A stretch of DNA of 64,000 nucleotides from contig CAMOJA010000005.1 in the NCBI GenBank assembly GCA_946616535.1, positions 54,206-118,205 on the forward strand, read 5' to 3'. This document shows, in pieces, positions 9,558-46,153 of this stretch. Made by a program: the position numbers and the translations under genes. Under the pieces are notes generated by a model. The model did not search any database and had not been told where the DNA came from. It worked only from the letters and a program-made list of their open reading frames with translations. The stretch comes from an uncultured Bacteroidales bacterium. GTDB lineage: Bacteria; Bacteroidota; Bacteroidia; Bacteroidales; Paludibacteraceae. How positions within the stretch are numbered: the stretch's first letter is position 1; each line of letters begins with the position of its first letter.

Positions 9558-9739
9558 TTGTTTATAGTATATAAAACTAAATAAAATCTTTTGAATGCTT
9601 TTGCGCTTCGCTTTTATGTACTTTGCTGCTAATAACTCCTCGTGAGTAAACTCCCGGATAGTTCTTATCATCAAACTCCATACACTTCCGTGTCAAAATC
9701 ATTCAAAAGCGATAAATAAAGATAAACAATGCGGTGTGT
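9558..9739 (-). repeat. Structured repeat element, copy A1
   Basis: Read on the minus strand. The outer repeat TTGTTTAT/ATAAACAA lies at 9722-9729 and 9558-9565. P1 is a 10-bp stem (CATTCAAAAG at 9700-9709 with CTTTTGAATG at 9588-9597). P2 is ACAC-GGAA-GTGT (9682-9693). The P3 loop contains GAGTTTACTCAC. P4 is a small GCG/CGC hairpin (9603-9611). T-rich blocks TTTATCTTTATTTATCGC and TTTTATTTAGTTTTAT flank the core. It is nearly identical to A2 at 11081-11261, with about seven substitutions and one 1-bp indel over 182 bp. A short reading frame crosses it, but I do not take it as a gene. Confidence 0.8.
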
Positions 9740-9766
9740 TTGTATAACTTGGATACACTATGCTGT

Positions 9767-9936
9767 GAATTTATTTTAATTTATCGTTGATTATTGATTG
9801 TAATCTCGGTAGAGATGAGGGTTGTTGTGGTAATGTGGTCTGCAAATTTATTTGTGAGAGCACATTAGCAGAATAAGACTCAAGGGTACGCAGTACTTAA
9901 AATCAATAATCAATTTTATTTACTTTTATTTACTTT
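9767..9936 (+). repeat. Structured repeat element, copy D
   Basis: Same architecture on the plus strand, head to head with A1. P1 is 13 bp perfect (TTGATTATTGATT 9787-9799 with AATCAATAATCAA 9901-9913). P2 is ATCTC-GGTA-GAGAT (9803-9816). P3 is TAATGTG/CACATTA (9831-9837 and 9861-9867) enclosing CAAATTTATTTGT. P4 is GTAC-GCA-GTAC (9886-9896). The 3' flank repeats TTTTATTTACTT and ends at the tgt stop codon. No clean target duplication was found for this copy. Confidence 0.8.
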
Positions 9937-9942
9937 AAAATA

Positions 9943-11076
9943 TTACATTCGCTGCATGATATTCGGCAGGACGGCGGCTTTCCAAGCTGAGTAGTCTCCC
10001 GCGAGGATATGCTCGCGTGCTTGCGTTACGAGGTCGAGATAGAACGCCAGATTATGAATCGAGAGGATCTCGAGTCCCAACATCTCCTGCGCGTGTATCA
10101 AATGTCTCGCATAAGCCCGCGTGTATGCGTGATCGACATAACTCGTGCCGCATGGATCCAACTCCGTGAAGTCGTCCTCCCATTTCTTGTTGCGCAGGTT
10201 CATCACGCCGTTCCACGTGAAGATCATTCCGTTCCGGCCGTTGCGGGTAGGCATGACGCAGTCGAACATATCTACGCCTCGCTCGATGGCCTCGAGGATA
10301 TTCCAGGGTGTTCCGACGCCCATGAGGTAGCGCGGTTTATCCTCCGGTAATATGTCGTTGCAGACCTCAATCATGTCGTACATCACTTCCGTTGGTTCCC
10401 CTACCGCCAAGCCGCCTATGGCATATCCGTCGCGGTCTAAGTCGCGCAGCCGTTTGCAGGCCTCTTGCCGCAAGTCCGTGTATGTGCAGCCCTGCACGAT
10501 AGGGAAGAGATGTTGCTTATAGCCGTATAGATCTTCTGTGCCGTCAAAACGCTCAATACAACGGTCCAGCCAGCGATGCGTACGGTCCATCGAGTCCTTC
10601 GCGTATTTCTTATCCGCCGTACCAGGACAGCACTCGTCGAACGCCATCATGATGTCGGCGCCTATCTCTCGCTCGATATCCATCACGTTCTCCGGCGTGA
10701 AGAGCAACTTACGGCCGTCGATATGACTGCTAAACCGCACGCCCTCTTCCGTCATCTTACGGATGTCGGTGAGCGAAAACACCTGAAAACCGCCGCTGTC
10801 CGTCAGGATCGGCCTGTTCCAGCCTTCGAAACGATGGAGTCCGCCTGCCTGATGGAGTATCTGCGTGCCCGGACGCAAGAAGAGATGATAGGTGTTGCCT
10901 AAGATGATCTGCGCTTTGATATCGTCCTCCAGCTCTTTGCGTTGCACGCCTTTGACAGTCCCGACGGTTCCAACCGGCATGAAGATCGGCGTGAGTATAT
11001 CGCCGTGGTCGGTATGTATCACTCCCGCCCTCGGCCCGACACTCTTCCGCTCGCTATGTAATTCAAAAAACGCCAT
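9943..11076 (-). CDS. tgt: tRNA-guanine transglycosylase
   Basis: Exchanges guanine-34 for the queuosine precursor preQ1 in GUN-anticodon tRNAs. The 377-residue TIM-barrel carries DSGGFQVFSL (92-101, substrate Asp) and VMPTRNGRNG near the catalytic Asp. In the region where other Tgt enzymes hold the CxCxxC...H zinc site, this protein has DPCGTSYVDHAYTRAYARH. Only one cysteine is present, so the usual zinc ligands are not seen; I believe this is common in Bacteroidota, but it should be confirmed by alignment. The gene sits between directly repeated elements A1 and A2. Confidence 0.94.
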   Translation of the reverse strand: MAFFELHSERKSVGPRAGVIHTDHGDILTPIFMPVGTVGTVKGVQRKELEDDIKAQIILGNTYHLFLRPGTQILHQAGGLHRFEGWNRPILTDSGGFQVFSLTDIRKMTEEGVRFSSHIDGRKLLFTPENVMDIEREIGADIMMAFDECCPGTADKKYAKDSMDRTHRWLDRCIERFDGTEDLYGYKQHLFPIVQGCTYTDLRQEACKRLRDLDRDGYAIGGLAVGEPTEVMYDMIEVCNDILPEDKPRYLMGVGTPWNILEAIERGVDMFDCVMPTRNGRNGMIFTWNGVMNLRNKKWEDDFTELDPCGTSYVDHAYTRAYARHLIHAQEMLGLEILSIHNLAFYLDLVTQAREHILAGDYSAWKAAVLPNIMQRM

Positions 11077-11080
11077 CTAT

Positions 11081-11261
11081 TTGTTTGTAGTATATAAAAC
11101 TAAATAAAATCTTTTGAATGCTTTTGCGCTTCGCTTTTATGTACTTTGCTGCTAATAACTCCTCGTGAGTAAACTCCCGGATAGTTCTTATCATCAAACC
11201 CCATACACTTCCGTGTTAAAGCATTCAAAAGCGATAAATACAGATAAACTATGCAGTGTGT
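11081..11261 (-). repeat. Structured repeat element, copy A2
   Basis: Near-duplicate of A1 in the same orientation. The P1 arms are at 11111-11120 and 11222-11231. Its 5' end abuts the stop codon of the GxxExxY gene and its 3' end abuts the tgt start codon. Its outer end GTATATAAAACTAAATAAAA is an inverted match (19 of 20) to the outer end of copy E, so A2 and E form the two ends of a composite unit with the GxxExxY gene inside. Confidence 0.8.
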
Positions 11262-11267
11262 AAGCAC

Positions 11268-11708
11268 TTAGAACATATACATCGTGCCATCCTTATCCAG
11301 ATAATAGTGTTCCGAATGACCTTTTATAGGTCCGAAATTATATAAAATGCCTATTTTCTTACCGGTAAGCCGCATATAGTTCCATAATTGTTGTCTATGC
11401 TCAATACATAATTTTTCTACGGCTTTGCATTCAACGATGATACTTTCGTCTATTAGAAAATCCACATAATGTTTATGCTCAATTTTTTTCCCGTGATATG
11501 AAATGGCAAAATAGAACTCTCGCTGATAAGGAATCTGTCGTTCGTCCAATAAAATCTGCAATGCCTCTTGGTACATATATTCATTAAGAAAAGGTCCCAA
11601 TTCACTATGTACTGTAGTTAAACACCCATTTGTGGCATAGCATTTTTGCTTCAGATCATTCAGCCATTCAGGATGGGTGTCTATTACGCGTTTAAGAGTA
11701 AATTGCAT
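11268..11708 (-). CDS. GxxExxY-family protein (PD-(D/E)xK nuclease-like)
   Basis: A 146-residue protein of the small GxxExxY family, which has a restriction-endonuclease-like core. The name motif is in divergent form in ELGPFLNEYMYQEAL (about 36-50). The putative nuclease core follows, with DFLIDESIIVECKAVE (Asp, then ExK) at about 82-97. The biochemical role of the family is not established; I infer nucleic-acid processing from the core. The gene is enclosed by structured elements A2 (downstream) and E (immediately upstream, opposite strand), and its first codons overlap the start of E. It looks like cargo of that composite unit. Confidence 0.8.
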   Translation of the reverse strand: MQFTLKRVIDTHPEWLNDLKQKCYATNGCLTTVHSELGPFLNEYMYQEALQILLDERQIPYQREFYFAISYHGKKIEHKHYVDFLIDESIIVECKAVEKLCIEHRQQLWNYMRLTGKKIGILYNFGPIKGHSEHYYLDKDGTMYMF

Positions 11709-11711
11709 GAG

Positions 11712-11877
11712 AATTTTATCTTTGTTTATTGCTGATTATAAAGTGTTTACATCTTCGATGTGAGGAGTCGTCCTGACTGCCGACATTAAATTTATTTATA
11801 TGTTGGCGGGCGGGCGATTACTCATAGCGCAGCAGGCGCAAACACTTTAAATCAGTTTTTATTTAGTTTTATGTACA
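11712..11877 (+). repeat. Structured repeat element, copy E
   Basis: P1 is about 16 bp with one bulge (CTGATTATAAAGTGTTT 11732-11748 with AAACACTTTAAATCAG 11840-11855). P2 is ACATC-TTC-GATGT (11749-11761). P3 is GCCGACAT/ATGTTGGC (11779-11786 and 11800-11807) around TAAATTTATTTAT, extended by TCGTCC/GGGCGA. P4 is GCGC-AGCAG-GCGC (11827-11839). The 5' flank is TTTATCTTTGTTTATTGC and the 3' flank TTTTTATTTAGTTTTAT. It ends against the panD stop codon. Confidence 0.8.
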
Positions 11878-11880
11878 ATT

Positions 11881-12225
11881 TTACACTAGTTTGTTATTCA
11901 CAGGGAAAACGATAGCGGGCTTGAAGGTCTTCGCTTCTTCCGGCTCCATAAGCGCGTACGCCATGATGATCACCGTGTCGCCTACATTCACCAGGTGCGC
12001 CGCAGCGCCGTTGATGCAGATACAGCCCGAGCCGCGTTTGCCGGGGATGACATAGGTCTCCAGCCGCGCGCCATTGTTGTTGTCCACTACCTGCACGCGC
12101 TCGCCGGCATAGATATTTGCTGCCTCCATGAGCGCTTCATCAATGGTGATGGACCCGATATACTCGAGGTTTGCCTCGGTCACCTGTACGCGGTGAATCT
12201 TTGATTTTAATATATTCAAAAGCAT
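11881..12225 (-). CDS. panD: Aspartate 1-decarboxylase proenzyme
   Basis: Makes beta-alanine from aspartate for pantothenate and CoA. The protein is 114 residues from the ATG at 12225. The self-cleavage site Gly24-Ser25 ([11 protein letters not shown]) yields the pyruvoyl group, and the substrate-binding region NGARLE and GAAAHLV are visible. The longer open frame begins far upstream and would cross the promoter, so it is rejected. A dedicated promoter lies 20-50 bp upstream. Confidence 0.95.
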
Positions 12226-12244
12226 AATACTCCAAATTAGGCCG

Positions 12245-12276
12245 CAAAGGTACAACAAAAATTGCACATACGCAAA
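12245..12276 (-). promoter_or_regulatory. Promoter for panD
   Basis: Minus strand TTTG, 20 nt, TACCTTTG; predicted start about 10-15 nt upstream of the ATG, giving a very short leader. Confidence 0.85.
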
Positions 12277-12340
12277 TTTTTCTGCGATTTTTTGCAGAAG
12301 AGAAGGGGAAGGGGCGTCCGGAGGTACTGGATTTTTGCAT

Positions 12341-12363
12341 AAAAAAGAGCCCCGAAGGGCTCT
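12341..12363 (-). terminator. Terminator of the short transcript upstream of panD
   Basis: AGAGCCC and GGGCTCT enclose a four-base loop and are followed, on the minus strand, by a run of Ts. Confidence 0.9.
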
Positions 12364-12590
12364 ATTTAGGGTGTAAGGAGTGCTAAACAAGGTCTATTTA
12401 CGTTACCACTCCGTGACCATCTCGCGACCATTACGGACATCACGGTCCGGTTCTGGTCCGGTTTTGACCGTTTTTTTGAAAAGAACTACATCTTGCGCAA
12501 CCATTCGCAGAAGAACTGATCTTCCATATAATGCACAATTACGAAAAAAGTCGTTACGAAAAAAGTCGTAATCGAAATTCGCTGCAAAGA
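12364..12590 (-). ncRNA. Candidate small RNA or micro-ORF transcript
   Basis: A promoter at 12595-12627 and a terminator at 12341-12363 define a unit of about 230 nt without a normal gene. It starts with two copies of a 15-nt unit (TTACGAAAAAAGTCG as read on the plus strand). It carries a 13-codon frame (12486-12527, MEDQFFCEWLRKM). It ends in a GC-rich segment with several GGTC/GGACC blocks. It may be a regulatory RNA, a micropeptide or a leader; the sequence does not decide. Confidence 0.5.
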
Positions 12591-12594
12591 TACA

Positions 12595-12627
12595 ACAAAA
12601 AAATCGACATACGCAAGAGGTATGCCG
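12595..12627 (-). promoter_or_regulatory. Promoter of the short transcript, overlapping the upstream terminator
   Basis: Minus strand TTG, 21 nt, TATCTTTG. The -33 region falls inside the terminator hairpin of the large surface-protein gene, so one sequence appears to serve both roles. Confidence 0.75.
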
Positions 12628-12641
12628 ATTTTTTTTGTTAA
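12604..12641 (-). terminator. Terminator of the 2488-residue surface-protein gene
   Basis: ATCGACATAC and GTATGCCGAT pair around a GCAAGAG loop with A/T runs on both sides. It lies just after the stop codon of the gene on the minus strand. Confidence 0.8.
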
Positions 12642-12649
12642 CTCCTTAA

Positions 12650-15600
12650 TTATCGTAGGCGAGCGCCGCGGGCGTCGAAGAGTTTACCGTCCTTGACGAT
12701 ATAGAGTAGACCGTCGATGAGCACTTTTCTGACTTCTGAAGGCTGACCGCTGACGGCTTCTATGTCCGTCGGTGTCTGCTGTACCGGTGAGATCTCCAGC
12801 CAGAAACGGTTGTCATGCGTACCTTTCTCCAAGTAAACGGTGTAATCCATTCCTGCGGAGAGGTTGGTGCGAACACCTGTCTCCTCGTCGATGAGGGTCA
12901 CTCCTATTCCGTCCGCGCCATCCGGTAGGGCGAAGGTATAATCGCCTTCCGTAGTTATGTTCGCGCCAACAGGAATAACTGTTGTTTGATCCGTATGGAG
13001 CGTCATACTATTGGCAGCTACTTTCTCATAACCGATAAAGGTATAGATATTGCTGCGGCTGTTGAGCTCTTTGATCAGGTCTTGTCCGAAATCGAAATTA
13101 TCGGTTACTTGTTCCAGATCGGTCATACGGACATAGGTCTGGTCAAGGAATGTAGTATCTTGCTTCAGTTCAATACGCCAGTTATATTCTTTGGTGGCCT
13201 CTTTGCGTGCGCGGCGTGCAACGATAGAAGACGGTTTCGCGCTGACTGCCGTCCAAACGATAGCGTTCTTAATCTGCGTCAGGTATGCATGCATCGGCTG
13301 GAAGGTGAAGGTGGAAGTCGCTTGCGGCGTAAGCGTATTATCTGTTTTGTTCCACATATAAATGAATGGGAACTCACACTCATCATTATGCCAAGTATAG
13401 TCCGTCTTCCAAGTGATGTCATTTCCGCTACCGTCTTTCAGAGTAGAGTTATAGAGGTTATAACTCGGCACGCCGATGCAACGCCAGTAACTGTCTTTCA
13501 CTCTTCGGTCGCCTTCTTCCGTACCGCGGTTGATCGTACATTCGTATTCGTCGCTCAAAGCCGGAATAGTGCAATTGGTTTGTTTCAATATGTCCTGATT
13601 GACAGTGGACGGGAAATACAACTCAATGGTACTTATTCCGTTCGACCAGAAGGTGGTGTTATCTGCCGCCATAGCACTGAGGTTGAGCTCCAAGATATAA
13701 CCTTGGTTCTTCTCCAACTTATAGCCTTGCGCTACTTTGGAAGGGCTGACATATTTCCAGTTAGGCTTGGAGTCCATCCAATAACCGTTCTTGGCGCGGT
13801 TGAGCCCGTCGTAGTATTGGATTACCCAGTACTGACCGTACGTGCCGAATCCGAAGATATCACCTACCAGTACATCGAACGGGAAGGAGATGAAATACAA
13901 CCTCCGCTCGTACGTTGATTTCTGCTGACCAACAGATAATGGCGGATGGTGCTCTGCCAAATCCTCCACAATATGATCCGGACGGGCATGTTCCTTATCC
14001 TGATCCTCCGGATGCTGGCGGTTATTCAGTATCCAGCGGTTGAAACGCATCACGCCGTAGACATTCTTTACGCTGGTCATTTTAGCGTCGTTAGAGAAGG
14101 TGATACACTGCGCTGATTCTTGGTGTTCGCGGACGATCATGACGTCTGCATTAACTGTTAAATCAGTATCAATTGTCTCAGACGATCCGGACGGAACCCA
14201 TGCAGCAATCAGACGGTTGGTCTTGAAATCATAGATTACGCGCACCGAATATTGGGAAGCCGATGCTGAACCGCCCAATATCTGAATAGCAGTCGTTCCT
14301 TCTGCAAATCCACCCGCTGCTCCTCTGAACCATTGCGTTTTACCGCAATAGTTCGCATAGAGTTTTACTAACGCGGAAGGATTAGCCTTAACGGTAACTT
14401 CGTATATCCAGTTCTCGTTGTCACTCAGGATGACGGAGTTTTTTCCCGGAGGATTGGCTGTAAAGGCGGCACCAGTGGAACCATTGTAGATATTTGCATT
14501 GGCAGTTCCGCTACCTTGCAGTACTAAGAATTCCGCATTTGTAGAGGTCGAAGCACTGACATACGCACGGCTGATCTTATTGGTCTTGCGATTCCACATA
14601 AAGCGGACGTTTGCGCTATACGGATCCAGATATGCTTGGCTCCCACTATGACCATTATTGCCGTCATTCTTAAGAGTACCCTCAGTGTCGGTGTTGTTGT
14701 ACGGATTGCCCACATCCTGAATCAATGTATCGGTGATACACGGACTATAGTCATTGGCAATACAGAAAGCGATATTGGTATTACGCGGACACCATTTTGC
14801 TTTGTAGTGGCTGTATTTCTCTCCGAAGGAGTTAGCAGCGCTCTCCGAGAACGACGAATACGTCATCCGATGGTCCAAATTGTCCACATAATTGCCCCAT
14901 TTATTAGAGAGCGCGCTGGATCGTATATAATAATTGCCTGTGTACGCACCTATGTATTGAATAGAGTTGATGACTCCGGCGGCACCTTGTGTTACTTTGA
15001 AGTTATACACCGCGGAGCTATCTACGCTGAGGCTCTGAGTTGCAGCCCCATTGATATTCAGACTTTCCCAAGTGATTGCGCCGGTACTTGCATTGATGGA
15101 ACTAACCTTGCGGGCTTTGAGAATAGGCGCATTGTCTTTTGCTACGAAGAATGAAATCGTATCTACGCCATTCTCGCGAGCACGAATGATACGCGACGGG
15201 TGAACCCAATTGGCATCATGCGCACTACCTAATGACCATTCTGCATTATCGTTGTAGAGGATTTGGAAGTCATTCGCAGCCGCAGGGTAATGAACGCCTA
15301 TCAGGTAGTTATATCCGCCCTTATCTCCAAAGTCCAGCGTGAAGGTATATGTTCCTGCTGCGTTGGTCTTAATCTGGCAATTATTACGAGTAGTCTCTCC
15401 GTCTTTCTCTTTGAACTCCCAAGAAGTCTCACCTATATCGCCACTCGCACCGGCTTTCATTGTTCCGTTGTTGCCAAACCATTTGCCGTCAGTGCGGTAA
15501 AGTTTGAATTGGTAGGTTTTACTGCCGTCAAGGATATATTCAACCGACATTGGCATTGTTTTGTCCGGAGTGAACTCAAATGGAATCGAATCTATTTCAA

Positions 15601-18600
15601 CGCCGGAGCTATTAAATAGTCTCAATGCATAACCCGTGTTCTCCGGATAGTTCATCCAATAACCTTCGTTGTAGTAGTCAGCTAAGTTGGAATTTTTGCT
15701 TACGGGTGTTTGGTCTGCTAAAGGCACGAACATCGGCAGTTTAGTAGAATTATAATCACCTCGGTAAGCTACTTTGTTTTTTACAGAATTTGTTTTTGCG
15801 AAATTTTTGTAGTCAGTTTGCTCCAATTCCGTAAAGGCGACATAAGTATATGATGCATTTACACTTGCTCCTTCAGCATCAAAATAGTAAATCTTTGAGC
15901 CTTCTGAAACAGGTTGCATTTGCCCGTGAGTACCGGTATAGGTGCCGCCGGTTTGGCTACCTGTACCGTTATTGCCATCCCAATATTCACCACTATAGAA
16001 ATATACATATACATTACTCCAACCAAGTGTGTTATTGAAGTAAATCACGCGTTTCTTGGTGTACCGTGCGGTGAGGGTGCCATTGAAAGTAGCTTTGAAA
16101 CGGTTGCTGTTTGTGGTAGCCGAACTTTCCAAAGTGATACCGTCTCCGGGAACCCATGTGCTAAAGTTGTAACCAACGATAGTAGGAGCAGAGACAGCCG
16201 TCCAATCGGTTGCTTTACCCGGACTGGTGGTGCTGGGGGCAATGGTGTTGCCTTCGGTGTCTTTGTACTGGATGGTTACCGTATAGCCACTGGCGATAGT
16301 GAACGATACTTCTCTTTCGCTGAGGAGCGTTCCTCCGCTGCAATCATCACCGGTACGCAAAGTCGCCTTGATCTTATATCCGCCCGCAGCCAATCCGGCA
16401 ATAGAGAACTTGACACGGTCCGGATGACTTCCGTCGTGGTCGTCGATTGCTTCATGTCCGGCAGGCACCGGGTTGTCATTGTCGTAAAGCAGTTCCCAGC
16501 AAATTTTGACAGGAAGCACCGGTGTCGGGGCAATAGTCGGATTAGCAATAACAAAGCCTGTACCGCCCGCAGCCACCGGATCAAACATAGTATTATTCAG
16601 CGTGATAGCCGTAATCTCAGCTTTCTTGTAGTACGCATAGAGGGTAAGGTCGCTAGCATCGTATTTCCAATGCCCGCTTGCATCTGAATAATCTGTAATG
16701 TTTGCTAACAGATTTCCGGAAGCATCTGTAAACTGTGTACCAGTACCATTTGCTGCGGACCAATAACCCATGAACGCGTAACCATTTGCAGCAGTAGGCA
16801 TCGCAGCCGATGGGAACGCAGCATCATAAGTGGCCGTCAGATTTGCCTGACCGCCGCTTCCATAACCGGTTCCGCTATTCGTTAGTGTCACGGTATACGT
16901 CTTTGCGGTCCACTTCGCGTACAGCGTCGTGGCTGCGGTTATAACATCGTTATCAAAATCCCAAGCGTTCGTGCATCCTTCCTCTTTGTACCAACCTCCA
17001 AAGGTGTAACCTGTTGCGGAAGGAGCAGAAGGAGCACTAATCTTATTATTATAACGAACATCGCTATATTTGCTGATAGCGGAACCGTGTCCTTGCATGT
17101 TAAATGTTACATCGTGTACGGTAACAAAACGCAAGCCGAAGTTGTTACTTGTGGCATCTGTCCACATCTGGAAGACACCTTTTTTCCCATTAGCAATATC
17201 TGCATCACCGGTGATTTTACGTCCGTTAACTGCTGAAGCGTTTTCAGCCGTACCATGCGCCGTAGCTACGTAACTGCTACTAGTTTTCAGTTTAACTTGG
17301 AAATTACCACTTGCATCGCTACTATTGAGGGTTACCACATTCGTCTCACGCCATGTGCCGCTCGAGTTAACAAACGCCAATGTGCCGGAAGCGCGAGTTA
17401 CGCCGTATCCGCTCGGCTCGAAGCCCACATAGAGGTTATGGTGCTTGCTGTCCGAATAAATCTTCAGCGTACCTTGCGCACCTGTTGCTTGACCGATAGC
17501 GCCTGCGCCCGGACCAGCCGGTAGCAATACCATTTGTCCTTGATAAGTCTCGCTTACAGCAGAAGGAGCGTTTGCCCAAGCGCGGGTAACAGATTTCGAT
17601 TTCGTCGCACCCGTTCCTAAACCGGATTCATAGAACAAACCTTCATAACCTACGAAGAAATGGGTCTTATTAGGAATAGTGAAGTTCTCAATTTGCCATG
17701 TTGTAGTTGCGCCTACTTGCGTAAAATCAGCACTTGCCCAATCTTCGCTACCGCTTGTTCCGTAACGGAAGGTGTAGGTACTTGCCTTTACCCAATAAGC
17801 ATAAAGAGTGATACCGCCATCATAAACCCACTTGCCGTCGTTCATATAGATGGTTACATCGGAATTCCAGTTACCGGTGCTACTGATAATTTGCTTACCA
17901 TTACCATTCGTATTGGTCCAGTATCCTTGGAACTTCCAGCCTGTCTTCGTCGGGCAAATAATAGTACTCAAGCCGGTACTTGTATTATAAGTTGTTGTTT
18001 GGCTCGTTGTTCCTTCTTTTCCACTATCCGCACCTTGGTTGTTGAGAGTAATTGTACAACTTTTAGCTGTCCAGTATGCATGAATAGTTGCTGTAGAAGC
18101 AGCGACATCCCAGTTGTGGGCACTAGACATATTCGCGTTATAGTACTTCGTGCCACTACCACCTGCTGAAGCATAGTATCCTCCGAAGTCATAACCCCAT
18201 TTAGTCGGAGCCACTTTGCCTGTAGGCATAGAAGAACCTTCGGTTGCCGTCACTTCTGTTGTTCCGTCTTCACCACCTTGCTGGTTCAGCGTTACCGTAG
18301 TTATAAATTTCGTGCGGACACTTACCGGATCTCCGTACGTAGTACCTTGTCCGTTGGTGGCATATGCTTTGAAGTAATAGGTCGTACCATTTGTCAAACT
18401 ACTTTTTGTAGCAGAGAAGGTAGTACTGCTTAGATTACTTGCTGTTACGGTTCCACCATTACATGCGGAAGTTGTTCCCCACTTGAATCCATACGCAGTA
18501 ATAGCATCATTATTTGCAGATACACTCGATGCATTGAATTTCACGCTTGTGGTTCCTATACTCGTTGCAGAGGCCGTTGTTACACTCGGAGCAGAAGGAC

Positions 18601-20116
18601 AAGTGGCTGCTGTGCTGGACAATGACTTTTTACCAGATTCAGTACCAATTGCGAGACATCTGTCATGTGTGTAAGTACTATATGCCAAATCATTTGTTTT
18701 GTTGGCGTCTCCGTTGACACCTCCATTCAAGATAAATCCTGTTGCTTGGCTTGTAATAACTACGTCCCACCATTGACCTCCTGTATTACTACATCTAAAA
18801 CCGCCATTATTGTCGCTACCTGTATTACCATACCAAGATTTGGTTATATCCCCAGAGCCATCCCATGCGTACACATACATCGAGCTCCAGTTGTTAGAGT
18901 TCTTAACATGAATGGTCTTGGTGTTGTATACTGTCACACCGTCACTTTTGCTGGAGTAGATAGGTGTAGCTTCTGCCAGTTTTGCACGGAATTTGAACGT
19001 CTGGTTCGCTCCGTGAGCATCAGGAACAGTCCAAGTCGCAGTCAATACATTCGAGGAAAGACTTGAGGTCTTCGGAGTAATATCCGTCCATGTACTACCA
19101 TTATTAGTGGTGTATTGGAAAGAAATAGTATTTGAACTGTTAGCGCGTGTTCCCACCAACGTGATGTCATTGCCGGCAACAATAGATGTTGATGGCGTTA
19201 CGCTTGTCAGAACAATAGCCGGCGCCGGAGCAGCCCATTTATAGTAAATAGTTGTAGTCGTTTCTGCTCCATCCAAACTTGCTGAATTATTGCGATATTT
19301 TACTTTAAGTGCTATGGCCTGGTTTGATGTCGTTGTTCCAGATGCGATATTATATGTCGTTGTAGAAGAATAAGAATTACCACCAAATTTACACCAAAGT
19401 GCAGAGTTCGCATCGGTGTGATTTTGCGTGGCTGTAATGGTAAGCGTTGAAGCCATTCCACTAATAAGAATAATCGGGCTACCACTACTCAAACCTGTTC
19501 CACTTCCCGGAGCAGTATTAGTAGCGCTTATTGCTATAGAACTGGATTTTACTGCCGGAGGAAGAATTTTATAAGTGAATTCGCAATTGTTGCCACTATT
19601 TTTTAAATAGTGTGCGGCTTCCCAGGTTCCGGCAGCGAACCACCAGTGCTCAAATGTGTAATTACCGGAAGGATCTGTGGAACTAGCGATTGTTAAATTC
19701 ATATTAGTGTGTTGTAATTCATAATCATGAGCACTCTCGCTAGATCTGGTGTTCGTCTTGAAATCAGTATCTGAACCACTTTGGGTCTTATATCCCAATC
19801 CACTTTGCCCTGCATCAAAAGCTTGATCGCCCCAATCGTCCCATACTTTCAAATACATCTTCTTAATTTTAAAAGAAGAAGTAATTGTTCCCAAGTCCAT
19901 AGAACCATTACTACCATTGTAGGTGTAATTGTTCTCCGAACCATTTTTATCGTAGACCATATAGACTTCATAAAAGCCCGTACCTCCCCACATCTGTCCC
20001 ACGCAGAGGGAGAGGAGAAGGGTGAGGGTGGTGAGGATTTTCGCCATCCGACTTACTTTTGCGCAACCTTCCGCCTGCGCCTTAGCGGTTCTTAGATTAA
20101 AAACTAAGTTTTTCAT
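12650..20116 (-). CDS. Giant secreted surface protein with InlB B-type repeats (2488 aa)
   Basis: An exported multi-domain protein. The N-terminus begins MKNLVFNLRTAKAQAEGCAK and continues into a hydrophobic segment MAKILTTLTLLLSLCVGQMWG, so the signal peptide sits unusually deep (about 24-44). The chain contains beta-sandwich and fibronectin-like segments (for example near 300-400 and 510-600). Several Listeria-Bacteroides InlB B-repeats follow, with GYTFGGWYKE and LYAKWTAK-type ends (about 600-1250). Long Ser/Thr/Asn-rich regions come next. The C-terminus IDGLLYIVKDGKLFDARG resembles the ends of the two other large secreted proteins here and may be a sorting signal. Adhesion is a likely role but is inference. 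Confidence 0.8.
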   Translation of the reverse strand: MKNLVFNLRTAKAQAEGCAKVSRMAKILTTLTLLLSLCVGQMWGGTGFYEVYMVYDKNGSENNYTYNGSNGSMDLGTITSSFKIKKMYLKVWDDWGDQAFDAGQSGLGYKTQSGSDTDFKTNTRSSESAHDYELQHTNMNLTIASSTDPSGNYTFEHWWFAAGTWEAAHYLKNSGNNCEFTYKILPPAVKSSSIAISATNTAPGSGTGLSSGSPIILISGMASTLTITATQNHTDANSALWCKFGGNSYSSTTTYNIASGTTTSNQAIALKVKYRNNSASLDGAETTTTIYYKWAAPAPAIVLTSVTPSTSIVAGNDITLVGTRANSSNTISFQYTTNNGSTWTDITPKTSSLSSNVLTATWTVPDAHGANQTFKFRAKLAEATPIYSSKSDGVTVYNTKTIHVKNSNNWSSMYVYAWDGSGDITKSWYGNTGSDNNGGFRCSNTGGQWWDVVITSQATGFILNGGVNGDANKTNDLAYSTYTHDRCLAIGTESGKKSLSSTAATCPSAPSVTTASATSIGTTSVKFNASSVSANNDAITAYGFKWGTTSACNGGTVTASNLSSTTFSATKSSLTNGTTYYFKAYATNGQGTTYGDPVSVRTKFITTVTLNQQGGEDGTTEVTATEGSSMPTGKVAPTKWGYDFGGYYASAGGSGTKYYNANMSSAHNWDVAASTATIHAYWTAKSCTITLNNQGADSGKEGTTSQTTTYNTSTGLSTIICPTKTGWKFQGYWTNTNGNGKQIISSTGNWNSDVTIYMNDGKWVYDGGITLYAYWVKASTYTFRYGTSGSEDWASADFTQVGATTTWQIENFTIPNKTHFFVGYEGLFYESGLGTGATKSKSVTRAWANAPSAVSETYQGQMVLLPAGPGAGAIGQATGAQGTLKIYSDSKHHNLYVGFEPSGYGVTRASGTLAFVNSSGTWRETNVVTLNSSDASGNFQVKLKTSSSYVATAHGTAENASAVNGRKITGDADIANGKKGVFQMWTDATSNNFGLRFVTVHDVTFNMQGHGSAISKYSDVRYNNKISAPSAPSATGYTFGGWYKEEGCTNAWDFDNDVITAATTLYAKWTAKTYTVTLTNSGTGYGSGGQANLTATYDAAFPSAAMPTAANGYAFMGYWSAANGTGTQFTDASGNLLANITDYSDASGHWKYDASDLTLYAYYKKAEITAITLNNTMFDPVAAGGTGFVIANPTIAPTPVLPVKICWELLYDNDNPVPAGHEAIDDHDGSHPDRVKFSIAGLAAGGYKIKATLRTGDDCSGGTLLSEREVSFTIASGYTVTIQYKDTEGNTIAPSTTSPGKATDWTAVSAPTIVGYNFSTWVPGDGITLESSATTNSNRFKATFNGTLTARYTKKRVIYFNNTLGWSNVYVYFYSGEYWDGNNGTGSQTGGTYTGTHGQMQPVSEGSKIYYFDAEGASVNASYTYVAFTELEQTDYKNFAKTNSVKNKVAYRGDYNSTKLPMFVPLADQTPVSKNSNLADYYNEGYWMNYPENTGYALRLFNSSGVEIDSIPFEFTPDKTMPMSVEYILDGSKTYQFKLYRTDGKWFGNNGTMKAGASGDIGETSWEFKEKDGETTRNNCQIKTNAAGTYTFTLDFGDKGGYNYLIGVHYPAAANDFQILYNDNAEWSLGSAHDANWVHPSRIIRARENGVDTISFFVAKDNAPILKARKVSSINASTGAITWESLNINGAATQSLSVDSSAVYNFKVTQGAAGVINSIQYIGAYTGNYYIRSSALSNKWGNYVDNLDHRMTYSSFSESAANSFGEKYSHYKAKWCPRNTNIAFCIANDYSPCITDTLIQDVGNPYNNTDTEGTLKNDGNNGHSGSQAYLDPYSANVRFMWNRKTNKISRAYVSASTSTNAEFLVLQGSGTANANIYNGSTGAAFTANPPGKNSVILSDNENWIYEVTVKANPSALVKLYANYCGKTQWFRGAAGGFAEGTTAIQILGGSASASQYSVRVIYDFKTNRLIAAWVPSGSSETIDTDLTVNADVMIVREHQESAQCITFSNDAKMTSVKNVYGVMRFNRWILNNRQHPEDQDKEHARPDHIVEDLAEHHPPLSVGQQKSTYERRLYFISFPFDVLVGDIFGFGTYGQYWVIQYYDGLNRAKNGYWMDSKPNWKYVSPSKVAQGYKLEKNQGYILELNLSAMAADNTTFWSNGISTIELYFPSTVNQDILKQTNCTIPALSDEYECTINRGTEEGDRRVKDSYWRCIGVPSYNLYNSTLKDGSGNDITWKTDYTWHNDECEFPFIYMWNKTDNTLTPQATSTFTFQPMHAYLTQIKNAIVWTAVSAKPSSIVARRARKEATKEYNWRIELKQDTTFLDQTYVRMTDLEQVTDNFDFGQDLIKELNSRSNIYTFIGYEKVAANSMTLHTDQTTVIPVGANITTEGDYTFALPDGADGIGVTLIDEETGVRTNLSAGMDYTVYLEKGTHDNRFWLEISPVQQTPTDIEAVSGQPSEVRKVLIDGLLYIVKDGKLFDARGARLR

Positions 20117-33238: not shown

Positions 33239-33246
33239 AATGCTAT

Positions 33247-37788: not shown

Positions 37789-37808
37789 GTACAAAACAAA
37801 TTTGGGCG

Positions 37809-37840
37809 CAAAGATACAAAATATTTATAATATGTGCAAG
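37809..37840 (-). promoter_or_regulatory. Promoter for the manC-trxA run
   Basis: Minus strand CTTG, 20 nt, TATCTTTG, directly upstream of manC. It is the only consensus promoter I see before the seven closely packed genes down to trxA. Confidence 0.8.
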
Positions 37841-37890
37841 CGCGCGCGACTTTTTTTAGGAAAAAAGTGTCATTTTGTCCCAAAAATGAA

Positions 37891-37927
37891 AAACTTTCCA
37901 CTTTTAACTTTCCACTTTCAACTTTTA
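37891..37927. repeat. Heptanucleotide tract (ACTTTCC/ACTTTTA)n
   Basis: Five units of ACTTTNN just upstream of gldD; the tract supplies the sequence where the -33 promoter element should be. Confidence 0.85.
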
Positions 37928-37931
37928 TTAC

Positions 37932-37939
37932 TACCTTTG
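37932..37939 (+). promoter_or_regulatory. Probable -7 element for gldD
   Basis: TACCTTTG 20 bp before the ATG. The expected TTTG 20 nt upstream is not there because repeat DNA occupies the site, so this promoter may be weak or use the repeat. Confidence 0.55.
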
Positions 37940-37958
37940 TGCCGTAATTTGGAGTAAA

Positions 37959-38546
37959 ATGCGCAAAAATTATTTTTTAGGGTTGTTATTTGGAGGTATT
38001 TTTTGTGTTTTTTTCTTAACCTCTTGTAGTAAGGTGTCTACGCCGAAGCCATACGGCTATTATCGTATCACCTTGCCGGATACTTCGTATGTGGATTTCG
38101 AGACCCTCTATCCGGATTATCCCTACACCTTCGATCTGTCGCAGAACGCCGTTGTCCAACCGCGGAATGACGAACCTTATTGGATCAATGTCTATTATCC
38201 CGCTTTGGATGCAACCATCCACTGCTCCTATAAGTCTGTTCATCGTAACTTACGCGAACTGTCCGATGATGCACTCGAGTTCGTCTATCGGAATGCCTCG
38301 TTCGCGAATGCCATTCCGGAGCGGGAATATGCGCATCCGGAGGCCGATGTATATGGCGTATTATTTGATTTGGAGGGAAATACCGCTTCGTCCTGCCAGT
38401 TCTTTATCACCGATTCCACCCGCCATTTCTTCCGGGCTTCGGTGTATTGCAATTGCCCGCCGAATGCCGACTCCCTCGCCCCGGTATATAACTATTTGCG
38501 CACCGATGTGATCCGCATGGTTGAGTCTTTTGAATGGAAATACTGA
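37959..38546 (+). CDS. gldD: Gliding motility / T9SS-associated lipoprotein GldD
   Basis: A 195-residue lipoprotein: hydrophobic leader followed by lipobox FLTSC with Cys23. The mature part has PKPYGYYRITLP and YPYTFDLSQNAVV, the pattern I recognise from GldD, and a basic/aromatic C-terminus (MVESFEWKY). GldD is needed for gliding and type IX secretion in Flavobacterium. Its presence in non-gliding Bacteroidales is common. It is first in a plus-strand run with the GGGPS-TadA gene 3 bp downstream. Confidence 0.88.
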   Translation: MRKNYFLGLLFGGIFCVFFLTSCSKVSTPKPYGYYRITLPDTSYVDFETLYPDYPYTFDLSQNAVVQPRNDEPYWINVYYPALDATIHCSYKSVHRNLRELSDDALEFVYRNASFANAIPEREYAHPEADVYGVLFDLEGNTASSCQFFITDSTRHFFRASVYCNCPPNADSLAPVYNYLRTDVIRMVESFEWKY

Positions 38547-38549
38547 TGT

Positions 38550-39707: not shown

Positions 39708-39730
39708 ATCATCAATCACCAATCACCAAT
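39708..39730. repeat. Heptanucleotide tract (ATCACCA)n
   Basis: Three units (ATCAATC, ACCAATC, ACCAATA) fill the 23-bp gap and end at the next ATG. Confidence 0.85.
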
Positions 39731-41617: not shown

Positions 41618-41639
41618 CGGTCGTCATAACGAATAAAAA

Positions 41640-41666
41640 TCATCAATCATAAATCATAAATCAGCA
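41640..41666. repeat. Heptanucleotide tract (ATAAATC)n
   Basis: Four units (ATCAATC, ATAAATC, ATAAATC, AGCAATG); the last merges with the dus start codon. Confidence 0.85.
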
Positions 41667-42692
41667 ATGGCTGAAAGCCGTCTATATCTCGCTCCCATGG
41701 AGGATGTTACCGATCCAGCCTTCCGCATGCTCTGCAAACGCTACGGAGCGGATCGTGTTTATACGGAGTTTGTGAACGCCGATGCCTTGGTGCGCGATAT
41801 CGCTTCTACGACACGCAAACTGACGATTCACGATGCGGAGCGACCGGTAGCCATTCAGATATACGGACGGGAACCCGAAGCGATGGCTGATGCGGCACGT
41901 ATCGTAGAGACGGCCAAACCCGACTTTATCGATATTAATTTCGGCTGCCCGGTGAAGAAAGTGGCCGGAAAAGGAGCCGGAGCTGGATTGCTCAAAGACG
42001 TACCGAAGATGCTGGAGATCGCCAAAGCCGTCGTCAATGCGGTGCACACACCGGTAACAGCAAAAACCCGCCTCGGATGGGATGAAACAGATCTTCTGCC
42101 CAAAAATAATCCATTAGGATTACCAATCACCAATCACCAATTACCAATCACCAATTCTAAAGAAACATTCATCGTTTCTTTGGCTGAAGCCCTCCAAGAC
42201 TGTGGTATCCAAGAACTGGCTATTCATGGTCGCACCCGTTCTCAGATGTACCGCGGAGAAGCCGACTGGACCTTGATCGGAGAAGTGAAGAACTGTCCGC
42301 GTATCCATATCCCGATTATTGGTAATGGCGATGTGACGACGCCTGAACGAGCCAAAGAATGCTTCGATCGCTATGGCGTAGATGCCATCATGATCGGTCG
42401 CGCCACCTTTGGTGCACCCTGGCTCTTCGCCGAGATGAAAGGCCTTCCCGCTCCGAAAACGATGGCGGAGAAGGTTGCTGTTTTGAAAGAACACGTCCTC
42501 GCCTCGATCGCTTGGTGCGGCAACGACGAACGCAAAGGAATCCTCCATTCGCGTCGTCATTTTGCGGCTTCGCCGGTCTTCAAAGGTTTGCCGGATTTCA
42601 AGCAAACCCGCATCGCCCTCCTCCGCGCCGACACTAAAGAAGAAGTCTTTGCTATCATGGATGAAATAGTAGCCAAATGGTCAAACGAATAA
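41667..42692 (+). CDS. tRNA-dihydrouridine synthase
   Basis: An FMN-dependent enzyme that reduces uridines in tRNA D-loops. YLAPMEDVTDPAFR begins the barrel. The catalytic cysteine is in INFGCPVKKV (about 90-100), followed by KTRLGWDE, HGRTRSQMYRGEADW and GNGDVTTPE, with MIGRATFGAPW. It is 341 residues, DusB-like. Between KTRLGWDE and VSLAEALQD is an insertion of about 25 residues with LPITNHQLPITNS, encoded by a 7-nt repeat. Confidence 0.93.
   Translation: MAESRLYLAPMEDVTDPAFRMLCKRYGADRVYTEFVNADALVRDIASTTRKLTIHDAERPVAIQIYGREPEAMADAARIVETAKPDFIDINFGCPVKKVAGKGAGAGLLKDVPKMLEIAKAVVNAVHTPVTAKTRLGWDETDLLPKNNPLGLPITNHQLPITNSKETFIVSLAEALQDCGIQELAIHGRTRSQMYRGEADWTLIGEVKNCPRIHIPIIGNGDVTTPERAKECFDRYGVDAIMIGRATFGAPWLFAEMKGLPAPKTMAEKVAVLKEHVLASIAWCGNDERKGILHSRRHFAASPVFKGLPDFKQTRIALLRADTKEEVFAIMDEIVAKWSNE
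42122..42156. repeat. In-frame heptamer tract (ACCAATY)5 inside dus
   Basis: Five consecutive units of ACCAATC or ACCAATT form most of an insertion absent from typical Dus proteins. Confidence 0.9.
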
Positions 42693-42714
42693 AAAAATAT
42701 TTTTGGTATTTTTA

Positions 42715-42918
42715 GATGATTGATTTAAATTTTATTTATGTTTATTGCTGATTATTTATAGGGAACTCGCAGAGTTAAGAAGTTTTATTCGAGCGAGTTA
42801 TGTTAAGTTTATTTATAAATAAGTCGGTTGAATAAAAATTCGAAGTACGTAGTACTATAAATAATCAGGGTTTTATCTGTTTTTTTTATTTACTTAATTT
42901 ATTCTAAAATCAATCATC
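42715..42918 (+). repeat. Structured repeat element, copy F, with apparent 8-bp target-site duplication
   Basis: Perfect 12-bp terminal inverted repeats GATGATTGATTT (42715-42726) and AAATCAATCATC (42907-42918) are flanked exactly by TATTTTTA on both sides (42707-42714 and 42919-42926). Inside, P1 is 14 bp perfect (CTGATTATTTATAG 42748-42761 with CTATAAATAATCAG 42855-42868). P2 is AACTC-GCA-GAGTT (42764-42776). The P3 arm, TTATTC/GAATAA, encloses TAAGTTTATTTAT. P4 is AGTAC-GTA-GTACT (42844-42856). The flanks are TTTATTTATGTTTATTGC and TTTTATTTACTT. The element fills the gap between dus and the BASS gene. Confidence 0.85.
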
Positions 42919-42953
42919 TATTTTTAATATAATTTTTCTTTTAAATATCAATA

Positions 42954-43997
42954 ATGAGAAAGTTTTTTGATAGTAATGCGTTATGGTTGAGCATGCTCGT
43001 CGGAGCGGTCTTTTACCCCTGGCTCCTGCCCTTGAAGCCGGTCTTACCGTGGTTGATCTTCTTTATGCTCTTCTTTACGTTCTGTAAGGTCAACCCGCTT
43101 GACTTACGTCTGCATAAATGGCATTGGGTGGTATTGGGTGCGCAGATGGCACTCGGTTTCCTGACCTATTTTGTGACGCTCCGTCTCTCCGGAGATCCTG
43201 TCTTGGCGCAGGGACTGCTCATGTGCTTCATCATGCCTACGGCTACTGCCGCACCGATCATCGCCGGTAAGATGGGAGGTTCTATTCAGAACCTGACTAC
43301 CTTCACGCTGCTCTCTAACTTCGCCACGGCGATTATTGTACCCGCCACCTTCCCATTAATAAATGACCAATTACAAATGACCAATTACCAATTTGCGGAG
43401 CAATTCTGGCCGGCGTTTCTGCTGATTTTATCCCGCGTAGCGCCCCTTCTACTTGGTCCTTTTTTCTCTGCTTGGGCACTGAGAATAGGGTATGATTGGT
43501 ATCAGAGAAAAAAAATCAAAAATCAAAAATCAAAAATCAAAAATGCCAAAACCTTTGAGTTGCCAAAGAGTTTGGCTGTCGTACCATTCTATCTCTGGGT
43601 TGCCTCGATCACCGTGCTCTCTGCTACAGTCACACAAACAGTTATTACCAATTACCAATCACAAATGACCAATATGCTAATTTTATTAGCATGCTCCTTC
43701 TTCGTCTGCCTGCTGCAATTCGGTTTGGGTAAATGGATTGGATATAAACTGCCGGCTCCCAGCAAGGGACGCGACTATCAGGATGTGCTCATCAATCCGG
43801 CTGCGGCGCCTAAGACCATGGCGGGAGTCTCGTCTATCACGGCCGGACAAGCTTTTGGCCAGAAAAACACCTCACTCGGTGTATGGATGGCGCAGACCTA
43901 TCTTGATCCCCTTTCTTCACTCGGCGCAGCAGCGTATATCATCTGGCAGAACCTCTTTAATTCGGTGCAATTGTTCGTTGTAGCGCATAAAAAATAA
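42954..43997 (+). CDS. BASS-family (bile acid:Na+ symporter type) transporter
   Basis: A 347-residue inner-membrane protein with about nine hydrophobic segments. GDPVLAQGLLMCFIMPTATAAPIIAGKMGG corresponds to the conserved crossing helix region, and a second such region is NPAAAPKTMAGVSSITAGQAF followed by LDPLSSLGAAAYIIWQN near the C-terminus. The substrate is unknown; bile acids, pantoate and keto-acids are all transported by relatives. Three separate 7-nt repeat tracts are inserted in loops, making this the most repeat-rich gene in the window. The promoter is unclear because element F lies directly upstream. Confidence 0.8.
   Translation: MRKFFDSNALWLSMLVGAVFYPWLLPLKPVLPWLIFFMLFFTFCKVNPLDLRLHKWHWVVLGAQMALGFLTYFVTLRLSGDPVLAQGLLMCFIMPTATAAPIIAGKMGGSIQNLTTFTLLSNFATAIIVPATFPLINDQLQMTNYQFAEQFWPAFLLILSRVAPLLLGPFFSAWALRIGYDWYQRKKIKNQKSKIKNAKTFELPKSLAVVPFYLWVASITVLSATVTQTVITNYQSQMTNMLILLACSFFVCLLQFGLGKWIGYKLPAPSKGRDYQDVLINPAAAPKTMAGVSSITAGQAFGQKNTSLGVWMAQTYLDPLSSLGAAAYIIWQNLFNSVQLFVVAHKK
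43356..43390. repeat. In-frame heptamer tract 1 in the BASS gene
   Basis: Five units TTAATAA, ATGACCA, ATTACAA, ATGACCA, ATTACCA; encodes INDQLQMTNYQ in a loop. Confidence 0.9.
43511..43545. repeat. In-frame heptamer tract 2 in the BASS gene
   Basis: Four AAAAATC units and one AAAAATG; encodes a Lys/Asn/Gln-rich cytoplasmic-type loop (KIKNQKSKIKN). Confidence 0.9.
43644..43671. repeat. In-frame heptamer tract 3 in the BASS gene
   Basis: Four units ATTACCA, ATTACCA, ATCACAA, ATGACCA; encodes ITNYQSQMTN between two membrane segments. Confidence 0.9.
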
Positions 43998-44013
43998 AAA
44001 AAAACAAAATAAA

Positions 44014-44045
44014 TTTGCATATTCGAAAAAAAAGCCGTACCTTTG
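44014..44045 (+). promoter_or_regulatory. Promoter for the 552-residue secreted protein
   Basis: TTTG, 20 nt, TACCTTTG; leader of about 70 nt. Confidence 0.85.
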
Positions 44046-44118
44046 TAGCCGGAATTATGTGAATTAAAGTTTTAACTTTATATAATCAACTTTTTGTTTA
44101 ACTCAAAATCTTAAAATT

Positions 44119-45777
44119 ATGAGGAAATTTTTCTCTTTAATCGCTGCCGTGCTTTTCGCAGGTAGCATGATGGCTGAAACTTCATCCCTTGTGTTTACTG
44201 CTAAATGTAACGGCTCAGGAACGGCTGATGATGGTGCAGCATGGACGGTTACTTCAGATGGTTCCGAGTCAAATTTTGATAACACTAGTGGTATCCACTA
44301 TGGTACTAATTCTGCCAGTGTTCAGTACTTGCAACTCGAAACATCAAGTATCACAGGTACGATTACTAAAGTTGTTGTAAATGCTCGTGATGCTAAAGCC
44401 AAAGCCACTCTTACTGTAAAGGTAGGAACAACGGACTTCGATGGTACTGCTACTGCAACGAACACCTCTACGGACTATGAATTTACCGGTTCTGCAAAGG
44501 GAAATATCGTTGTTAGACTGGATCGTGGTGCCGCGGAGACAAAAGCTCTTTACATTAAATCTGTGGTTGTAACTTATACTCCGGCTGCCGCAACAGATCC
44601 GGTTATTAACGCTGAGAACATTTCTCTGGGTTATATCCGTTTCGAGGGAGATAAGTATTCTACTACTAAGACTTTAAGTGTAACCGGTGCTTATCTGGAG
44701 AATCCTATTACGGCAAGTACAACTAGTGACAAAATCACTATCCTTACGGAAAGTGTTCCGGCTGAAGGTGGAGATTTTTCCATTAAGATTGATGCAGCCG
44801 GCGGTGCTTTGGACGAGGTTATTACTTTGACTTCTGGTTCTGCAAGCAAGTCTGTGAAAGTGCTTGGTCGTTTAATTAAGAAGGCGGAGATTGAGGGAGA
44901 GAATGTTACTCTTGCCTCGGATAGTAATACGGTTGATTCTATTACTGTAAATACGGTATATGGAATGAAAGCAGGAACGAGCAAAAAAACGGGAAGTTTA
45001 AGAATTCAAGTTCCCGCAAAAACAGCAAAATTACGTTTCTTTGCTGCTGCTTGGACAGGCGCTGCAGGCAATATTGCTATTTCTGCCCCTGCGGGTGTTG
45101 AAATTACTTCGACCGCTCTTAGCGAAGGCGTTATCTCTATTCTTGCTGATGCTGGTATTTCCGGTGCTGAAAATGATTATTTGCTGCAAGCTGCAGATGA
45201 AGCAAATTTCTTATTTGAGTTTGACTTAACTGGAGTAGATGCTGCAACTGATATTACACTAGCTAGCGGTACGGCACAACGTTTTGTTATTTGGGGGGCA
45301 AAATACGAACTCGAGGAAGAGCCGGCAGGCTGCGATTGGGATAATATCGAGTTCTTTAATGCAGGTCTTGCTCCTGAGGACGAGAACTACAACCAGTTTA
45401 AGATTTGCAAAGCAGGTGAGAATCCTAATATCGTAAATATTCAGGTTGCTCCTTGGGCAGATAATAACAAAGGTATCTACATTAACTTCCCAAGTGCAGA
45501 ATTTACTACCATCTCTTTACCGGAAGGTCAATATAAGGTAGAAGGTGCAGGTATCCTGCTCTATCTCACTGCTTTCACGGCAAAAGAGACCGAGGTTACT
45601 ATTAACTACAAGGGAGAAGATTGCGTGTTCACCGTTTACAATGTAAAGGGTGGTTCGGGTACCGCTATTGATAACACCGTTGTTAGCGAGAAGGCTATCA
45701 AGATGTTTGAGAACGGTCAGCTGATCATCATCAAGAACGGCGTGAAGTACAACGCTCTTGGTTCGGTAATCGAATAA
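44119..45777 (+). CDS. Secreted beta-rich protein with shared C-terminal motif (552 aa)
   Basis: An exported protein: signal peptide MRKFFSLIAAVLFAGSMMA, then a jelly-roll-like domain (about 20-155, starting SLVFTAKCNGSGTAD). Immunoglobulin-like or BACON-like segments follow (about 160-250, AENISLGYIRF...). The C-terminal third has no family I recognise. The end KMFENGQLIIIKNGVKYNAL resembles the ends of the two giant secreted proteins and probably serves export or surface attachment. It is monocistronic, with its own promoter and terminator. Its function is unknown; the lack of enzyme motifs suggests a structural or binding role. Confidence 0.75.
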   Translation: MRKFFSLIAAVLFAGSMMAETSSLVFTAKCNGSGTADDGAAWTVTSDGSESNFDNTSGIHYGTNSASVQYLQLETSSITGTITKVVVNARDAKAKATLTVKVGTTDFDGTATATNTSTDYEFTGSAKGNIVVRLDRGAAETKALYIKSVVVTYTPAAATDPVINAENISLGYIRFEGDKYSTTKTLSVTGAYLENPITASTTSDKITILTESVPAEGGDFSIKIDAAGGALDEVITLTSGSASKSVKVLGRLIKKAEIEGENVTLASDSNTVDSITVNTVYGMKAGTSKKTGSLRIQVPAKTAKLRFFAAAWTGAAGNIAISAPAGVEITSTALSEGVISILADAGISGAENDYLLQAADEANFLFEFDLTGVDAATDITLASGTAQRFVIWGAKYELEEEPAGCDWDNIEFFNAGLAPEDENYNQFKICKAGENPNIVNIQVAPWADNNKGIYINFPSAEFTTISLPEGQYKVEGAGILLYLTAFTAKETEVTINYKGEDCVFTVYNVKGGSGTAIDNTVVSEKAIKMFENGQLIIIKNGVKYNALGSVIE

Positions 45778-45830
45778 AGAATCCTTTTCATCCCATTCCT
45801 TCCCTTTAGGGAGGGTTAGGGTAGGCCCCA

Positions 45831-45858
45831 AAACAGCTCGCTTCGGCGGGCTGTTTTT
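45831..45858 (+). terminator. Terminator after the 552-residue secreted protein
   Basis: ACAGCTCGC-TTCG-GCGGGCTGT (one G-U) followed by TTTTTG. Confidence 0.92.
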
Positions 45859-45874
45859 GTTTTGTCAAGAGAAC

Positions 45875-46153
45875 CACTATTGTCCAATAAAAACTTTTTG
45901 TTTTCTCTATAAACAATTGATAGGTAGTTAGTTAAGGCGTTATTACGAGTAAACGGATTTGGTCTAACAATGTTTATTTATATTTATTGCTTTGAGTGCT
46001 TTACACTCGAAGAGTTGTGCAAATTGGTAGTAAAAGCTGTCTGGAAGTTTATTTGCAAGCAGATTTTAGTAACAAGTTGAACAAGGAGCTTTGCTCCTAA
46101 GCACGCAAAGGGTTTATCTTGGTTTTATTTACTTTTTAATAGACAATACTGTG
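45875..46153 (+). repeat. Structured repeat element, copy G, with apparent 7-bp target-site duplication
   Basis: The outer inverted repeat CAC-TATTGTC (45875-45884) pairs with GACAATA-CT-GTG (46142-46153). Both ends abut AGAGAAC (45868-45874 and 46154-46160). P1 is CTTTGAGTGCTT/AAGCACGCAAAG (45990-46001 and 46099-46110, one mismatch). P2 is ACTC-GAA-GAGT (46005-46015). P3 is TCTG/CAGA enclosing GAAGTTTATTTGC (46040-46063). P4 is GGAGC-TTT-GCTCC (46085-46097). Between the outer repeat and the T-rich block TTTATTTATATTTATTGC are about 85 bp not seen in other copies. Confidence 0.8.

Follow-up and report, generated by a model that had tools for sequence, protein, structure and literature searches.

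Mobile units in which a small nuclease gene stands beside a structured element are known from the HEARO/IscB-type systems. A different organization is that of REPINs and REP-associated tyrosine transposases (RAYTs): according to excerpts of PMC3116915, structured extragenic repeats form inverted pairs that are mostly free of genes, the gene of the related enzyme, a tyrosine (HUH) transposase, is flanked by the same repeats, and the repetitive extragenic palindromes (REPs) themselves are short hairpins. In the present analysis, a 64,000-nt stretch of the genome of an uncultured bacterium of the Paludibacteraceae (contig CAMOJA010000005.1, positions 54,206 to 118,205; hereafter the window) was found to contain six copies of a four-armed structured element, which we denote the clover, and two of these copies enclose a gene for a GxxExxY protein (PDDEXK_3, PD-(D/E)XK nuclease superfamily). 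Clover pairs, together with the adjoining branch of GxxExxY nucleases, suggest a so far undescribed type of selfish mobile element. The closest known organization is that of REPIN/RAYT, with an unrelated enzyme in the present case: clovers also occur in inverted pairs, but the ends of the unit are four-armed and 165-170 nt long, many units contain a PD-(D/E)XK gene, and no HUH gene is found near the listed clovers. As in the HEARO/IscB-type elements, a small nuclease gene adjoins a structured element in the clover units; the nuclease, however, is unrelated, and the clover units include two clovers each and no identified guide region.

All six copies listed in a preliminary description of the window (A1, A2, D, E, F and G) are present and have the common architecture that was proposed there. 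In each copy, a T-rich block at the 5' end is followed by stem P1, with 12 pairs in the model, and hairpin P2, with 4; next come the long arm P3, which has regular mismatches and ends in a short apical loop, and hairpin P4, with 6 pairs, before P1' and a second T-rich block at the 3' end. For G, the borders need revision: the core starts at about 45973, and the sequence from 45875 onward constitutes the leader of the longer unit with inverted repeats in which it is embedded, a miniature inverted-repeat transposable element (MITE). The statement that the stem sequences differ almost completely is appropriate for most pairs of window copies, which are 50-64% identical, but not for A1 and A2 (96% overall). 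A covariance model built only from G and its ortholog in genome G001 (R1) recovers A1, A2, D, E and F with E-values from 6.5e-15 to 9e-7 in a search of 85 kb, and a scan of the whole window with a second model made from 57 copies (R2) detected no seventh copy at E<=0.005. Strong covariation is seen both within the genus and outside it. In the 57 copies, 91.6% of the cells are paired, double changes occur in 45 of the 47 pairs, and the covariation score is 0.628, versus no more than 0.096 for slid partners. The respective values for 81 model-aligned copies from other genera are 90.4%, 47 of 47, and 0.894 versus at most 0.111, where the count of double changes is not beyond shuffles (72 of 500 reach 47/47) and the remaining measures are; all these values come from alignments fitted to a structure, which are biased toward that structure. 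Single-sequence folding energies are exceptional for D, E and F (Table 1), whereas those of A1 and G are unexceptional and, along with the failure of RNAalifold to recover the structure from a MAFFT alignment of the six window copies, weigh against the structural assignment. No matching Rfam family was identified: the Rfam 15 gathering cut-off was reached in the window by tRNA only and by no clover, and 14 further loci searched at E<=1 yielded only sub-threshold matches, none at the level of the clover family. Likewise, the excerpts of the literature on repeats and candidate RNAs that were surveyed contain nothing that names the clover, although a piece of it may be among the many candidate RNAs from human microbiomes of which PMC8040213, seen in part, reports.

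The deviations from Watson-Crick pairing are informative with respect to the folding molecule. Among the unpaired cells, counted on the sense strand in representatives with less than 85% identity and with one conserved wobble column omitted, G·T exceeds A·C in P3, by 62 to 8 in the genus alignment (A7) and by 82 to 24 in alignment A11. The corresponding counts in A7 and A11 are 6 to 0 and 8 to 5 for P2, 4 to 3 and 27 to 8 for P1, and 3 to 7 and 10 to 7 for P4, such that P1 and P4 are nearly strictly Watson-Crick in the genus. The sense-strand excess in P3 favors a folded single strand, without separating RNA from single-stranded DNA; P3 looks to be selected as a sense single strand of either kind.

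The GxxExxY protein encoded between A2 and E scores above the curated cut-offs (108.9 bits versus 22 for PF13366 and 106.5 versus 35 for TIGR04256), and its association with clovers extends well beyond the window. When genome contigs were scanned with an alignment of the respective nuclease branch, 148 loci were obtained, and the best 80 of these were analyzed; their sources are Bacteroidales of the rumen and gut, recorded as Paludibacteraceae, Prevotella, Prevotellaceae, Bacteroidaceae, Sodaliphilus, Muribaculaceae or simply Bacteroidales. R2 gave 176 matches at the 80 loci, 8 of which are antisense or weak and were left out of the counts. A clover lies within 400 nt of the gene in 76 of the 80 loci, and the canonical clover-gene-clover layout is present in 40; the loci lacking a clover are L262, where the left flank is too short, L292, L293 and L295. 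By contrast, ordinary GxxExxY genes are accompanied by a clover at none of 40 loci, 10 of which are from the genus. Within the genus, 16 of 40 genomes contain a total of 29 PF13366 genes, and for 16 of these genes R2 reports a clover at a distance of about 90 bp or less (E<0.001), with another, weak one at L177 (E 0.07); the ten highest-scoring genes have no clover by R2, and at L186 and L190 clover-like sequences are discernible by eye, with no R2 score. Clovers are present in 11 of the 12 genomes with the branch versus 14 of the 28 without it (Fisher p 0.013). The loci are not all independent, some being orthologs, as in the case of L068 and the window pair A2/E. This tie to a covarying element provides GxxExxY proteins with a concrete substrate candidate.

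Neighboring clovers are predominantly arranged head to head, which is the feature shared with REPIN/RAYT. Among the 147 genus copies (6 in the window and 141 in genus loci), 27 pairs of neighbors are less than 1 kb apart, of which 19 are head to head, 1 is tail to tail and 7 are tandem; in the 12 genomes of other genera, the respective numbers are 41, 6 and 5 of 52. In the genus, 13 of the 19 head-to-head gaps are 6-120 bp and 6 are longer, and 4 of the long gaps contain a GxxExxY gene (the window, its G001 ortholog L068, L122 and L123). In the other genera, the gap measures 35-236 bp in 33 of 41 cases, and the remaining 8, of 495-627 bp, all belong to loci with the nuclease gene inside. Both arrangements occur in the window: A1 and D form an empty pair with a gap of 43 bp, located between the start of an lptF/G-like gene and the stop of tgt, whereas in the nuclease-bearing pair, A2 is on the side of the stop codon of the GxxExxY gene, with 8 bp between it and the start of tgt, and E is on the side of the start codon, 6 nt from the gene. 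Other arrangements are also observed, such as the seven clover matches of alternating orientations that surround a single GxxExxY gene within 5.4 kb in Prevotella sp. P3-122 (L261), and the tandem copies in genome G227, which are separated by a 44-52 bp spacer with its own small palindrome.

Table 1. Clovers and associated features of the window, with positions counted from its first nucleotide.
Feature	Position	Strand	Match	Folding-energy z	Remarks
A1 clover	9561..9726	-	R2 125.3 bits, E 4.4e-17	-0.84	
D clover, partner of A1	9770..9939	+	R2 88.3 bits, E 3e-11	-5.95	
A2 clover	11084..11248	-	R2 128.1 bits, E 1.6e-17		
GxxExxY protein gene, 146 aa	11268..11708	-	PF13366 E 2.4e-31; TIGR04256 E 9.7e-31		Enclosed by A2 and E
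E clover	11715..11882	+	R2 77.5 bits, E 1.5e-9	-6.87	
F, single clover	42731..42895	+	R2 72 bits, E 1.1e-8	-4.93	14-bp outer inverted repeat
DDE-type MITE around G	~45878..46153	+			Inverted repeats CACTATTGTCC ... GGACA-like end; borders approximate
G clover core	45973..46138	+	R2 170.5 bits, E 3.3e-24	-0.77	G itself in R2 training set

The characterization of clovers as structured, multicopy and apparently mobile, already put forward in the preliminary description, is supported by further copies beyond the window; what that description overlooked is that clovers pair head to head, that A2 and E enclose a GxxExxY gene, that clovers are associated with the nuclease branch, and that G lies in a DDE-type MITE. 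With R1, copies were detected in 15 of 41 genomes, all within one genus, and with R2, in 25 of 40 genus genomes, with up to 23 copies per genome. In the family sample, 20 of 200 genomes contain R2 copies, every one belonging to the same genus, and in the order sample, only G001 among 198; because only 14 candidates per genome were scored in these two samples, under strict filters, misses are likely. All 12 genomes of other genera, picked for a nuclease gene beside a clover, contain clovers, 4-22 copies each and 144 in total. The neighborhoods differ, the largest set of loci with a common neighboring gene family including 6 of 80, and the same places can be filled or empty: G004 (L176) has a 35-nt gap at the place corresponding to the A1/D site of the window, and the units of L231 and L230 have short clover-free counterparts in L179 and L089. 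At the junction that is occupied by A1/D in the window, G001 (L068, 372-892) harbors a different structured head-to-head pair with the blocks GCATTTTTGTAAG/GCATTTTCGATTAA, recognized by eye and with no R2 score. In the compact genomes of gut bacteria, clovers also shape the borders of genes, and 36 of 65 convergent downstream genes, as delineated by a simple gene caller, end within 13 bp of the 3' end of the element. A fixed relation to the direction of neighboring genes was considered and dismissed (downstream, 72 in the same and 65 in the opposite direction; upstream, 41 and 68), that is, there is no simple rule.

Part of the clovers are carried by a different vehicle. G and about 17 others among 92 copies are embedded in a unit of about 280 bp with inverted repeats of the TAGTGTCCACTWAAAA type (L054, L057, L061, L097 and L101 are examples); by a loose pattern, DDE-type ends are found on 18 of 92 copies, the one at L087 probably being accidental. 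Inverted repeats of the same type flank a 405-aa DDE_Tnp_1/DUF4372 transposase in G024, and when L224 is compared with L223, the flanks of which are 97% and 94% identical, this vehicle is seen as a clean insertion with a target duplication of about 8 bases, 7 of 8 being identical. We take this vehicle to be an IS4-type MITE, with which G and its like share the inverted repeats of the transposase unit and, in one case, the duplicated target bases. Most clovers, however, lack such ends: 74 of the 92 copies have no DDE-type 3' end, and inverted repeats at both ends are limited to G and a minority. As a general clover feature, outer inverted repeats were rejected, given that outside the DDE-type group and F there is no excess over mismatched flanks.

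The explanation that we favor, with belief and doubt about evenly balanced, is a small mobile unit with a GxxExxY nuclease in which clovers serve as recognition ends; nuclease-bearing copies would be autonomous, and empty pairs and single clovers would not. The unit would consist of two clovers head to head with the T-rich outer blocks facing outward and, in autonomous copies, the PD-(D/E)XK gene between them, whereas empty pairs and singles would depend on the nuclease in trans. The nuclease may bind the folded four-way junction together with the T-rich blocks and cut at the ends of the unit, after which repair or replication by the host would complete its spread. Some clovers, a minority, are instead carried as cargo of DDE-type MITEs. 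More tentatively, this could be a new class of mobile element, with folded four-way-junction ends and a small junction-recognizing PD-(D/E)XK nuclease as the only enzyme, which, if true, would add to bacterial mobile elements a way for DNA to spread that involves no known transposase. Several observations weigh against this explanation. Two clover-rich genomes, G003 (23 clovers, 90% complete) and G007 (20 clovers, 84% complete), have no PF13366 match; two of the six long gaps in the genus hold other genes, a DUF3784 open reading frame (L060) and a TPR protein (L142), and that of L122 holds a second open reading frame beside the GxxExxY gene. In G227 (L124-L127, L129, L132), 13 of 21 clovers are near-identical single copies of one subfamily (89-96% identity), partly arranged in tandem. 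For the pair unit, no target duplication was found, the flanks at the sites compared being too diverged to define one, and the sole clean insertion with a target duplication is that of the DDE-type vehicle, in which a minority of clovers ride.

The last of these findings, along with the DDE-type ends and the G024 transposase that has the same ends, fits an alternative that we deem improbable, in which clovers are moved by ordinary transposases, either the DDE_Tnp_1 insertion sequence that shares the inverted repeats or others that have since been lost, and the GxxExxY gene is a passenger; about four fifths of the copies lack such ends and show no other excess of outer inverted repeats, and the tight tie to one nuclease branch across genera would be left unexplained. 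A Y1 (HUH, PF01797) transposase was rejected as the mobilizer, considering that none of its 23 matches in 17 of 40 genomes is close to a listed clover and that there is no match in the clover-rich genomes G002, G003, G007 and G227. The G·T excess in P3 and the 3' end that consists of a stem followed by a T-rich block are also compatible with clovers being RNAs that work with GxxExxY proteins as scaffold, guide or regulator, in which case transcription that starts between the paired clovers and runs outward would account for the head-to-head layout and mobility would be secondary. This possibility appears rather unlikely given that P1 and P4 show no G·T excess in the genus, a promoter is not established, and most clovers are far from any GxxExxY gene. 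Finally, clovers might be fixed intergenic structures, the stems of which are kept complementary by quasi-palindrome correction rather than by selection, as the nearly perfect Watson-Crick repeats of P1 and P4 and the tendency of the elements to fill the space between gene ends would allow. The patterned mismatches of P3, which are kept with compensatory changes across genera, the near-identical copies at different places, and the junctions that are filled in some genomes and empty in others make this very improbable.

With regard to the putative nuclease, the residues that are invariant in 17 aligned proteins include E43, D83, E93, K95, Q107 and Y111, which presumably represent the PD-(D/E)XK catalytic motif and the QxxxY motif. 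In the best predicted model (predicted local distance difference test score, pLDDT, 90.8; predicted template modeling score 0.86; pLDDT of the five models from 90.8 to 53.7), D83 is located on the strand 82-86 and E93-K95 on the neighboring strand 90-95. Sequence search identified no solved structural relative, and no viral or phage carriage of the branch was found; the window protein has only weak matches in PHROGs, and three proteins searched with defence-system models gave no match. Eight distant plasmid matches to the branch, all below 60% identity, were detected, and three of these plasmids that were examined contain no clover. In open-licence literature retrieved by family name and accession, no paper on the function of GxxExxY proteins was found in the excerpts covered, those of PMC12085832, PMC9756366 and PMC8934634 touching on the names.

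Of 247 genomes sampled from the phylum, 120 encode GxxExxY proteins, and related hairpin repeats may be served by the ordinary GxxExxY genes, which are common throughout Bacteroidota. At 12 of 37 ordinary loci, or 13 of 43 when the clover branch is included, the gene is flanked on each side by direct repeats that exceed the 99% level of mismatched flanks. At L164, L165, L167, L178, L199, L211, L213 and L217, long imperfect hairpins, or repeats such as those of the CACGGAT type, occur as direct copies around the ordinary gene. The generalization to ordinary genes is weak because the hairpin repeat of L199 is mostly local to the gene, 5 of its 7 matches in its own genome adjoining it. Apart from these systems, the window contains, at 12650-20116 on the minus strand, an open frame of 2488 aa in which a Listeria-Bacteroides repeat and a match to MucBP are seen, and which perhaps encodes a surface protein.

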